Part shown: piece by piece, positions 20,491 through 25,573 of the stretch
Layout: the number at the start of each line of letters is the position of its first letter
Numbering within the stretch: the first letter of the stretch is position 1
Made by a program: the position numbers and the translations under genes
Assembly: GCA_028713995.1 (NCBI GenBank)
Contig: JAQTNF010000035.1
Coordinates: forward strand, 1 to 40,910
Length of the DNA stretch: 40,910 bases
Reading direction: 5' to 3'
Origin: Deltaproteobacteria bacterium
Lineage (GTDB): Bacteria > Myxococcota_A > Polyangia > JAAYKL01
Notes under the pieces: model-generated
The model's input: the letters and a program-made list of their open reading frames with translations, nothing else
Database searches by the model: none
Told to the model about the DNA's origin: nothing

Positions 20491-22038
20491 TCAGTCGAAT
20501 TCCGTCCCGAGCATCAGGCTCGCGTTGAACACCACGCCGCCGAAGCCGTAGCCCGGGAATCCCGGGTTGTTGGTCTGCAGGCCCTTGGCGCCGGCCAGCG
20601 GTTCGTCGTTGTAGTCGGTCACCGTGGAGGGGACCTCGTCGACGATGCCGCCGTCCTTGGCCGGTTTATCCTCCTTGTTCACCGTGAGCTCGAGCATCTG
20701 CCACACCTGGCCCGCCACGTCGATCGTGAAGACCTGCCTGCGGATCTGGAACCTGAAGCCCGCGCCCAGGGAGTACAGGACGAGATCGTTGTCCACGTAG
20801 TTGTAGCGCCCGGTCTGCTCCGGCATGGGCGACGGGAAGAAGCCCGCGCCGGCCCGCAACGCCGCGAAATCGGTCACGCGCCACTCCACCCCGCCGCGCG
20901 CGGTCCACACGTCCTCGAAGCCCGGATCCGTCCATCCGTCCCCGGAAGCGGGCTCGCTCCCGTCGGACGAGCCGGGCGTCGGGTGGGTGTAGCCGTTGCC
21001 GTGCCGGTCGAGGTACTGCGACCATTGCTCCCAGGCCCCGCTCGCTTCGATCGAGAACGGGCCGATCTCGTAGGCCGCGGCGAGCGCCACCTGGCGCGGA
21101 TCGTAGCCGAGCACGAACCTGTGGTGCTGCAGGAACTCCTTCTGGACCTCGTTCGAGCCCGCGATGGGGCGCTCGCCGTTCCAGATGCGAAGCCGCACGT
21201 CCATCTTCACGTCGGTGTAGGAATAGTGGCTGTACACGGCGCCGAAGCGCAGGCCGATGGGCGTGCGGAAGGCCACGCCCGCGATGGGGCGCACGGCCGG
21301 GGTCACGTCGGCCGACGAGTTCACGTATGAATACTCCCACTCCGAGCCCTCGGGCATGTAGAGCGCGGCGCCCATGCCCATGGTCAAATCGACGCGCACG
21401 GCGAGCCCGAGCGAGAGCCAGTCGAGTGGAGCGTAGGACGCGGCCGGGGTGATGGTCATCACGCCGTCGAACTCGCCGAAGCGCTCGAAGTGCAGGCGGT
21501 TCGAGAAGTGCTGCTCGCGCTCGTCGTTGTACCAGGTCTCGTACTTGACGACGGACGGCACGGGCGCCGTGAAGCCGGCCCCGATGCGCAGCCCCGGCAC
21601 GCCGAACGAACCGATGGCGGCCAGGCTGAGCAGGTACGTGCCGGGCAGTTCCTTCGTCGCGCCCCGCTCGCGCGACAGCATGCTCGTGGGCACGGGCCGA
21701 TCCTGGCCCCATCCGTCTGGCCGCGTCTCGTAGATCGAGTCGGGCACGTCGTACTTGGGATCGCGCTTCATGGGGTCGATCGAAAGCCAGTTCTGCGCGG
21801 CCGAGATCGTGAGCCACACACCGGAGGGCGAGAACGACATGAGCGACGGGTTGACGAGCAGGTTGCCGGGGCCGGTGCCGAGCGCCGCGCCGCCGCCGCC
21901 CATGGCCGCGTTGCGCGCGTCCGTGCCGAACCAGCGGACCGGAGAGCCGGCCCTCGCCGTGCGGAGAGCGCCGGCCAGGACGACGGCCGCCGTGAGGAAG
22001 AAAGCGACGAGGAATCGCGTCCGCTGCGTGTGTTCCAC
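20491..22038 (-). CDS. FadL/OmpP1-like outer-membrane channel
   Basis: This 515-residue protein starts at a GTG behind AAGGAG. A signal peptide of about 30 residues ends near TARAG. The mature N-terminus has the FadL-family layout GTDARNAAMGGGGAALGTGP, then NPSLMSF. The body alternates hydrophobic/polar beta strands rich in Tyr, Trp and Gly (GLALRVDL-like strands, GVAFRTPIGLRFG, YSLGAGFRF), and it ends in a strand finishing LMLGTEFD; a terminal Phe is usual for BAM substrates but here Asp follows it. FadL proteins move hydrophobic compounds across the outer membrane; the substrate here is unknown. An acidic loop with SSDGSEPASGDG is unusual. Gene order puts it upstream of the Asp-linker lipoprotein. 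Confidence 0.8.
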   Translation of the reverse strand: MEHTQRTRFLVAFFLTAAVVLAGALRTARAGSPVRWFGTDARNAAMGGGGAALGTGPGNLLVNPSLMSFSPSGVWLTISAAQNWLSIDPMKRDPKYDVPDSIYETRPDGWGQDRPVPTSMLSRERGATKELPGTYLLSLAAIGSFGVPGLRIGAGFTAPVPSVVKYETWYNDEREQHFSNRLHFERFGEFDGVMTITPAASYAPLDWLSLGLAVRVDLTMGMGAALYMPEGSEWEYSYVNSSADVTPAVRPIAGVAFRTPIGLRFGAVYSHYSYTDVKMDVRLRIWNGERPIAGSNEVQKEFLQHHRFVLGYDPRQVALAAAYEIGPFSIEASGAWEQWSQYLDRHGNGYTHPTPGSSDGSEPASGDGWTDPGFEDVWTARGGVEWRVTDFAALRAGAGFFPSPMPEQTGRYNYVDNDLVLYSLGAGFRFQIRRQVFTIDVAGQVWQMLELTVNKEDKPAKDGGIVDEVPSTVTDYNDEPLAGAKGLQTNNPGFPGYGFGGVVFNASLMLGTEFD

Positions 22039-22228
22039 CCCTGAGCTCCTTGTCCTGCCCCGGTCCGTATGACGCGCGTTTCTACCACACTAATTTTCTT
22101 CGGCCATACTGGATAACGCCTTTTTATCTCCTGGCGGGGAGGGTTGCACAGGAGTCGGGCCTGGACCTAAAATGCCGCCACAGACCACGAACGGGTATAG
22201 AGATCAAGACAGCAGGAGGGAAAAAGCC

Positions 22229-22915
22229 ATGGAGATGGACGGCAAGCGCATCCTGATCTTCGCGCCGCGGCGGAACACCGGCTCGAAGAAGGACGCCACG
22301 GGCGCCTTTCAGCCCGAGGCCGGGGCGTTCGCGAAGCGCCACGGGATACCCAAGCGGCGGATAGTTCTTGTCGACAACGCCATGTCGAAACCGGCGATGC
22401 GAAAAGAGGTGCTCGCGGGGATCGAGACCGCAAAGGCGGACGCCGAAGGCGGGCTCTGCGCGCTGGCGTTCTTCTGCCACGGGATGGGTCAGAGCATCCA
22501 GTTCGGCTTCGACACCGGGAACGTGAGCAGGCTCGCGTCGGCGATCGCGGGACGCAAGGACGTGATCGTGGTCCTGTACGCCTGCAACACGGCCAAGGGC
22601 ATCACCACGGCCGAGGACCTGGCCGGGTTCGGCGGGGACGGCGGGTTCGCGGACGGCCTGCGTGACGCCCTGTGCCGGAACGGCGCCGTGGATTGCCAGG
22701 TGGACGCCCACACCACGGCCGGGCACACGACCATGAACCCATACGTGCGCAGGTTTGAGGGCATGGGGAGCACCGTGGGCGGGGCGGGGGGATTCTACAT
22801 CCTGAGCCCGACGACCAAGCCGCTTTGGAAGAAGTGGCGCGACGCGCTGCGCAGCACGAACCTGCGATACGACTTCCCGTTCATGTCCGTGGCCGACATC
22901 CACGCGGCTCTGTGA
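22229..22915 (+). CDS. Caspase-fold-like protein with His/Cys dyad, function unknown
   Basis: This 228-residue protein starts at the ATG at 22229 behind AGGAGGG. It has no signal peptide or membrane helix, so it is cytoplasmic. Two hydrophobic strands end in candidate catalytic residues: LCALAFFCHG (H84) and VIVVLYACNTA (C119). This His-then-Cys arrangement, each at the end of a core strand, fits clan CD cysteine peptidases (caspase, CHAT, gingipain). A further conserved-looking block is DGGFADGLRDALC and HTTAGHTT. At about 25 kDa it would be a bare catalytic domain with no sensor or death-fold partner. I do not recognise a named family and cannot exclude a non-peptidase alpha/beta fold. It borders the disturbed SNF2/AbiEii stretch. 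Confidence 0.7.
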   Translation: MEMDGKRILIFAPRRNTGSKKDATGAFQPEAGAFAKRHGIPKRRIVLVDNAMSKPAMRKEVLAGIETAKADAEGGLCALAFFCHGMGQSIQFGFDTGNVSRLASAIAGRKDVIVVLYACNTAKGITTAEDLAGFGGDGGFADGLRDALCRNGAVDCQVDAHTTAGHTTMNPYVRRFEGMGSTVGGAGGFYILSPTTKPLWKKWRDALRSTNLRYDFPFMSVADIHAAL

Positions 22916-22995: not shown

Positions 22996-23379
22996 TCAGC
23001 CGTCTCCCGGGTCGGAAGTCCGCTTCACGAACCCGACATCGGTGGATTCGAATCCCAGATCCTCGACGAGGTGTCGGAAGGTGGCGTAGAGCACCTCGCT
23101 GTCGGCCAATCCCAGTTCGTAGGCCGTGAGCACGGCCCGAAAGGCCTCGCGCACCAGCCGCACCTCGAGCACCTTCACGTAGCGCTCCGTCTTTGCCTCA
23201 CGCAGCCGGAACAGCATTGCGTTGACACGGGCGCGGATGGCCTCCTCGAGCCGCTGGGGGATGCTGTCCGGCAGTGCCGGGATTGCGAGACCCTCGATGA
23301 AATCGTCGGAGTAGTTCGACAGCGTCGCGTTCGGTGATCGGCGCTCCCGGGGCTCCAATCTGTCGCTCCTCTTGCCCAT
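22996..23379 (-). CDS. Hypothetical 127-residue helical protein
   Basis: The start is the ATG at 23379, with GGAGG five bases upstream. The same frame runs further upstream without a stop, so this gene can be mistaken for the tail of the SNF2 gene, but that gene's own frame ends at 23612. The N-terminus is basic (MGKRSDRLEPRERR). The rest is amphipathic helix (RLEEAIRARVNAMLFRLRE, VREAFRAVLTAYELG). No cysteines, signal peptide or recognised domain. It could be an accessory or DNA-associated protein. No function is assigned. Confidence 0.6.
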   Translation of the reverse strand: MGKRSDRLEPRERRSPNATLSNYSDDFIEGLAIPALPDSIPQRLEEAIRARVNAMLFRLREAKTERYVKVLEVRLVREAFRAVLTAYELGLADSEVLYATFRHLVEDLGFESTDVGFVKRTSDPGDG

Positions 23380-23611
23380 GACGTCCTCCGACGATCTCTC
23401 CGCCTGCCGAGTCATGCGCAGCAGGCCCGTCACACCGCGCGACGGAAGAAACATCGATACCTTGCATTCTATTGCATGTTCATGACGCAGCAAGGCCGCG
23501 ATCGGCACCTGGTGAAGAAGCTCGGCCACCGGATCCAGGAACTGGCCGAGGGCGACCTCTCGGGCAAGATCAATCGCCCTTGTCGCCTTCGAAATGCGAC
23601 CCGCAGAAGGA

Positions 23612-25573
23612 CTACGCCGAGATCGCCGTCCGCCCGGTCGCGTTGAAGAGCGAGGCGAGCGAGGAGGCGAGCGCGTCGATCGCCGCCGCGTCCGGCAGGG
23701 TGACCGCGAACCTGACTCGGCCGTCCTCGCCCGTTTCGAAGCAGTCGCCGAGGCTCGTGCGAATGGATCCCGCGAGCGCCGCCGCGCGCGCATCTCCTCG
23801 ATGTTGCTGACGAGGCTCACGGATTCGACCTGCGACTCCGAGTCGAGCGCCGCGAGCGACAGGTCGCGTTTCGCCGCGAGGGTCGCGAGAAGGTTCTCTT
23901 CGATGGTCTGCTCGGTGATGAGCACGAACACCTGAACGCTGCGCTCCTGGCCCATGCGGTGTGCGCGGCCGATCCGCTGCTCGAGCACCGCCGGGTTCCA
24001 CGGCAGGTCGACGTTGATGACGGTGTTCGCGGCCTGGAGGTTCAAGCCCGTGGAGCCGGCGTTCGTCGTGATGAAGGCGCGGCACTTCGGATCTTTGCGG
24101 AACGTGTCCACGAGCGGCTCGCGCTGCTTCTGCGGCACCGAGCCGTCGAGGCGGACGTAGCCCAGATCGTGCTTGTCGAGCAGCGGCTCGATGAGATCGA
24201 GCATCGTCGTCCACTCGGAGAACAGGACGATCTTGCGGTCCTCCTCCTCGGCGAGCCGTTCGAGAAGGCGGTCGAGCTCCTCGAGCTTGCTCGAGCACCC
24301 GGGCGCCTGCTTGGTCACGAGGAACGTGCCGTCGGCCGCCATGCGGCACATGAGCAGCGCCTTGCGCAGCCGGAGCATATCCATCTCGGTGAGGAAACTC
24401 TTGCGAATGATCGAGCTCACGACGCGCATCTGCCCGGCGTGGATGTCGAGCTGCTCGTCGGTGGGCGCGATGCGCACGAACTCCACGATGGAGAAGAGGT
24501 CGTCGAGTCGGTTCTCGAGCGGCGTGCCCGTGAGCACGAGCGCGAACGGCGACTTGAGGCCCTTGATGACGCGGCTCGTGCGCGTCTCCCAGTTCTTGAT
24601 GCGCTGTCCCTCGTCCAGGATGATGAGATCCCAGCTCGCGGTCTCGATCACCTCGATGTCGCGCATCACCTGCTCGTAGTTGCAGATCGTGAAAAACGCG
24701 CCACCCGCGTACTGCACCGAACGTTCCACGGCCGAGCCCACGACGATCTCGGCGCTCCGGGACGAGAACCTTTGCGCCTCGGAACGCCACTGCGACTTGA
24801 GCGACGCCAGGCACACGACGAGCACGCGCCTCACCGCGCCCTCGCGGGCGAGCAGCTCGGCCGCGCCCACGCCCTGGATCGTCTTGCCGAGGCCCATGTC
24901 GTCTGCGAGGACCGCGCGCCCCGCGCTCGCGGCGAACGCGACGCCGTCGAGTTGGTACGGCAGGAGCTCCACGGCGAGGAGATCGCGCCTGAGAGGATGG
25001 GACGCAGGGTCTTCCCGGATCTCCGCGGCCAACCGCTCGAGTCGAGCCCTGACGAGCTGCTGTTCGATGTACTCCTCGGCGTCCGGGTGGACGATGACGT
25101 CGCAGCCGAGCGCCTCGAGCTTCTCCACCGCGGCGATGAGGCCGCGGACGTCCTCGATATGCCCTTTGAGATAGGGCCGCGCGAGCTTCGCGGCCTCGGC
25201 CTTTACGCCTTCGGGCGCGAGCAGACCGAGCTCCATCTGTTCGCCGTAGCGCAGATGCACCGCGAAGCGCGTGCGGACGTACGGCGTGTTTCGTACCTCG
25301 GCCGGAAAGCGCCGGCGCACCTTGGAAGCGACGTGGATCACGTGCTTGCACGTGCCGAGCGTGTTCTTGCGGAAATCCGGGCAGGAGCAGTACGACTCGC
25401 CGGGCTCCCACCCGCGCAGCGCCACGCGGTACGTCCTGCCCGACGCCTTGTTCGTCACGAGGTAGTCGGTCCACTGCGTGCCGGGTTCGGCGGAGGAGAC
25501 GGCACGCGGCGGTGAACGTCAATCGGGACAGCCTGTCCTTGAGCGTGAGCTCCGAGCTCTTCTTGGTCGTCAT
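23612..25573 (-). pseudogene. SWIM zinc-finger SNF2-family helicase, frameshifted twice
   Basis: The reading starts at 25573 (MTTKKSSELTLKDRLSRLTF) and breaks between about 25527 and 25480. It continues in another frame through a SWIM finger (CSCPDF, then GTCKH) and SNF2/helicase motifs: ADDMGLGKTIQG (Walker A), ILDEGQRIKNW (DEGQ box), LTGTPLENR, GSTGLNLQAANTV and IGRAHRMGQ. A second shift in a GCGCGCGGCGGCG run near 23775-23795 returns it to the first frame for the C-terminus, ending at 23612. SIVEFV also joins directly to RIAPTDEQL, where homologues have about 70 more residues, implying an in-frame deletion. SNF2 proteins of this kind are ATP-driven DNA translocases found in many bacteria, sometimes in defence islands. 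Sequencing error is possible for the shifts. Confidence 0.8.

Follow-up and report, generated by a model that had tools for sequence, protein, structure and literature searches.

P0001, a gene in the window (the whole stretch of 40,910 nucleotides analysed here), encodes a stand-alone protein with a predicted caspase-like fold whose family is carried mainly by phages as optional cargo. On balance, we favour the reading that P0001 is a phage-borne accessory cysteine peptidase of clan CD, captured here by a bacterium, which would use H84 and C119 and, while the phage infects, would cleave a protein of the host or of a competitor at a few specific sites, perhaps in or on the envelope of the cell. 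The predicted fold, the conservation of the dyad, the phage distribution and the accessory status were supported by sequence comparison and modelling, and from there we infer the substrate, the role and the activity of the window copy.

Gene and predicted fold

P0001 runs from an ATG to a stop codon over 228 codons and encodes 228 aa (Table 1). It is a real gene with a good ribosome site. The codon use was inside the range of the neighbouring genes and hence host-like, and the GC content was 0.67 compared with 0.66 for the window. Both flanking genes were on the opposite strand, one encoding an outer-membrane-like protein and the other being a SNF2/SWIM-type helicase frame that looked disrupted. 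One end of this long frame had strongly atypical, non-coding codon use, so that the decay of the SNF2 neighbour described in the original prediction does appear to be a frame shift.

Table 1. Positions of P0001, its conserved codons and its neighbours in the window
Feature	Position	Strand	Basis or remark
Outer-membrane-like protein gene	20491-22038	-	flanking gene
Shine-Dalgarno-like AGGAGG	22214-22219	+	9 nt before the P0001 ATG, read from the sequence
P0001 gene, stand-alone caspase-fold protein (predicted)	22229..22915	+	open frame; codon use; full-length homologues
H84 codon, presumed catalytic histidine	22478..22480	+	invariant 29/29; end of strand 3 (78-83) in the model
C119 codon, presumed nucleophile	22583..22585	+	invariant 29/29; end of strand 4 (113-118) in the model
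D146 codon, GGDGGFADxLRD motif, helix 139-150	22664..22666	+	invariant 29/29
H161 codon, end of strand 5, AHTTAGHTT motif	22709..22711	+	invariant 29/29 and in 24 multidomain relatives
H166 codon	22724..22726	+	invariant 29/29; at least 90% in multidomain relatives
SNF2 region	22996-25458	-	flanking frame, looks frame-shifted

The structure of P0001 was modelled by AlphaFold2 (pLDDT 92.6, pTM 0.90). H84 in AFFCHG and C119 in VVLYACNTA had been placed 35 positions apart, each closing a strand in the manner of clan CD, and both the positions and the arrangement were confirmed, the latter in the predicted model, which had the caspase strand order with strands 3 and 4 leading into H84 and C119 respectively. 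The leading PDB matches in Foldseek all belonged to clan CD, including the TcdA/TcdB protease domain, legumain, caspases, metacaspase and gingipain. These matches were weak (E 0.006-0.1, TM 0.26-0.40), which suggested that the fold of P0001 is a distant branch, and no sequence relation of the family to any PDB chain was detectable. The His-Gly...Ala-Cys arrangement is known as the motif of clan CD (clostripain) (PMC12445089). In this way, the predicted caspase-like fold and the His/Cys dyad of P0001 were well supported by model and alignment, and we infer peptidase activity for the family.

The family and its conserved residues

Searches with P0001 as the single query gave nothing or noise in PHROGs, in PDB and among the records of phages and plasmids, and no copy was found in 58 related genomes. 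The only Pfam signal was a sub-threshold CHAT match (PF12770) over residues 26-136 (E 0.15, 11.9 bits against a cut-off of 24). The family was opened up by a two-row alignment of P0001 and one distant relative, a 976-aa protein from a MAG which combined LysM, phage-tail-lysozyme, caspase-like and SGNH domains. The search with this alignment returned the stand-alone bacterial relatives G193 and G209 and two larger ones; a three-row alignment of stand-alone proteins then matched 29 IMG/VR viral contigs at 33-56% identity, and a six-row alignment found matches, mostly in large proteins, in 22 of 379 Myxococcota genomes.

The viral relatives were full-length apart from a single one truncated at the end of its contig. 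P0001 and all 29 of them measured 161-282 aa, the 161-aa protein being the truncated one, and had no transmembrane segment, in agreement with the description of P0001 as a bare domain. The profiles of the stand-alone and the multidomain proteins aligned with each other (99.7% probability, E 1.4e-26), and in the larger proteins the caspase-like domain was joined to LysM, SH3, PG-binding, lysozyme, glucosaminidase, M15, VgrG3-like or eCIS-core domains. The expectation that relatives usually carry extra domains was right for the wider domain family, but the subfamily of P0001 is regularly stand-alone.

Based on an alignment of 29 proteins (P0001 and 28 viral ones), seven residues were invariant in 29/29, namely H84, G85 directly after it, G93, C119, D146, H161 and H166. 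The H, G and C together with the equivalent of H161 were also invariant in all 24 of the larger multidomain relatives, and so the conservation of the H/C pair goes far beyond chance. Both presumed catalytic residues thus passed the conservation check proposed for them.

Among described families, DUF4347 (PF14252) was the nearest in Pfam by sequence. It matched 6/29 family members (best E 9.8e-6) and 5/24 multidomain relatives with an alignment spanning the HG and YxC motifs, and P0001 itself gave no match at E<=10. No member of the 29 matched any PHROG, endolysin families included, and only noise was obtained with NCBIfam and PADLOC. By these profile comparisons, which placed it in none of the families of PHROGs, NCBIfam or PADLOC, the family of stand-alone proteins, predicted to share the caspase fold, is undescribed.

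Several of the large proteins came from the MAG genus g193 (L002, L016, L017, L018, L034-L037 and L039), in which a genome often had more than one large caspase-domain protein, with the domain joined to SH3, LysM, phage tail lysozyme, M15 or SGNH; the source of one member was roe deer omasum. From their domain make-up, these proteins look like exported multi-enzyme effectors. In L022 and L027 the caspase-like domain was found in eCIS-core (DUF4157) proteins, which may possibly be cargo of extracellular contractile injection systems.

Phage setting and candidate roles

In the intact-looking prophage of G193, the caspase-like gene was the last of the late operon, in the order terminase, portal, major head, tail genes, SGNH tail fibre, membrane proteins, lipoprotein and caspase-like gene. 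The phage neighbours of the family included baseplate, terminase, portal and holin genes. In many high-GC viral contigs the caspase-like gene was preceded by baseplate and tail genes and adjoined by genes for small membrane proteins, holins or lipoproteins; the holin family phrog_608 matched two scanned neighbours, one of them at L060:8702-9250. Small membrane proteins were enriched within four genes (19% vs 8%, p 4e-5, a statistic that ignores relatedness).

The setting was not uniform. The caspase-like gene was flanked by the large terminase and a small gene in L049, L053, L056 and L059, and it lay among DNA-metabolism genes in L041, L047, L051 and L065. It was absent from 21 contigs related by terminase or baseplate, several of which were short fragments. 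The clearest case was L115, whose terminase was 89% identical and whose gene order was that of L053 (and syntenic with L049 and L056), with exactly the caspase-like gene and the next gene missing. Such a clean absence at a syntenic site argues that the caspase-like gene is accessory, in the manner of a phage moron. For one baseplate protein and for the G193 terminase, too few contigs shared a relative to allow comparison. The next gene encodes a small membrane protein (L053:10903-11406, with equivalents in L049, L056, L059 and L045); in four phages it directly followed the caspase-like gene, and an HExxH-like motif (HEHEH, HEHVH or HEHFH) was present in four of the five copies.

Of the specific alternatives, the leading one is a lysis-stage envelope enzyme, in which the caspase fold would cut peptidoglycan peptides or an envelope protein for phage exit. 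We hold it as a tentative possibility. The position after the tail genes in the G193 prophage and many high-GC phages, with genes for holin-like proteins, lipoproteins and small membrane proteins around it, is what this role would predict, and the larger relatives with their LysM, SH3, PG-binding, lysozyme, glucosaminidase or M15 domains point the same way. Endolysins were also few on the carrier contigs (Amidase_2 0/29, M15_4 0/29, phage lysozyme 0/29, SLT 3/29), a count drawn from five Pfam families on contig fragments, the fifth family being GH19, whose control gave no match either, and the set of related phages available as matched controls being too small to use. The 25 best PHROG families for those G193 prophage genes that were scanned included no endolysin. 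However, the scarcity rests on those fragments and families, other phages had the gene beside terminase or DNA-metabolism genes, and its loss with one neighbour from close relatives suits a dispensable gene; to our knowledge, no clan CD enzyme cuts peptidoglycan. Taken together, the envelope-domain fusions, the membrane-gene neighbourhood and the few recognised endolysins point towards the cell envelope, whereas the variable position and the dispensability argue against an essential lysis enzyme, and for this reason an accessory host-directed peptidase is preferred. A wider form of the lysis reading, in which the phage enzyme would cut stem peptides or an envelope protein and the multidomain bacterial relatives would be exported cell-wall-degrading effectors, seems unlikely.

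Next comes a counter-defence protease, with which the phage would cleave a component of host immunity, for example a sensor or an effector, and which we regard as doubtful. It would fit the accessory, patchy occurrence of the gene and its mobility between phage modules, and a protein that is cytoplasmic by sequence (no membrane segment) with a very constant active site; but many copies were encoded in late operons, a less common place for early counter-defence genes. That the protein matures the virion as a protease or is part of its structure is improbable: tail or head genes often accompany the gene, and the best viral structure match carried the name minor capsid protein (prob 0.99, 138 columns), but the position of the gene varied, it was dispensable in syntenic relatives, and the G193 prophage had a match to a head maturation protease family of its own. 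Least probable of all is the bacterial defence or cell-death effector implied by the original prediction. The fold is common to CHAT and orthocaspase effectors and the weak CHAT match agrees with it, but PADLOC gave no family for P0001 and only noise in 2/29 relatives, no sensor, adaptor or partner gene adjoined P0001, and the family was mostly on phages and not in defence loci. Membership of P0001 in a defence system was therefore rejected; from that interpretation the caspase-like fold and dyad were retained (strand order, clan CD matches, invariant H/C, DUF4347 in 6/29), and the defence role was dropped.

Origin of the window copy and comparison with known systems

In the tree, P0001 was nearest to the phage proteins L040 (61% identity) and L042, and the other cellular copies were scattered among phage ones; the forks around P0001 were weakly supported. 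In five genomes of the same family, the outer-membrane gene was flanked divergently by another conserved gene, which was absent from the window and whose place was occupied by P0001. This replacement fits acquisition by the bacterium. No phage genes were recognised adjoining P0001 and no att-like repeat was found, so that the capture from a phage is deduced from the family alone. The most likely reading of these comparisons is that the window copy began as a phage gene and was taken up into the chromosome of the bacterium.

In the literature, prokaryotic caspase-like proteases have been described mainly as parts of defence, cell-death or toxin systems. Bare caspase-fold enzymes on diverse phages would put the same chemistry on the side of the attacker. 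The predicted enzyme is compact, with one domain and an evident dyad, and phages with and without the gene occur in natural pairs. Through the domain that it shares with cell-wall-degrading and eCIS-core proteins of Myxococcota, the family connects phage biology with exported effectors.

Compared with known systems, P0001 resembles the clan CD peptidases (C11, C13, C14, C25 and C80) in the strand order and the His-Gly...Cys dyad ending strands 3 and 4 of the predicted model, and differs from them in its low TM-scores and in its own motifs GGDGGFADxLRD and AHTTAGHTTxNP. The likeness to CHAT is confined to a weak alignment below the cut-off, with neither partner domain nor defence locus, and the DUF4347-like protein met here (L033) is long, with a frame of >720 aa, whereas P0001 is a stand-alone domain. 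The Tox-Caspase domains of polymorphic toxins are caspase-like with H and C and occur in exported proteins, including those of PVC/eCIS-type systems (PMC3482391). The multidomain relatives found here likewise include eCIS-core proteins, whereas the stand-alone family is phage-encoded and has no trafficking or toxin module.
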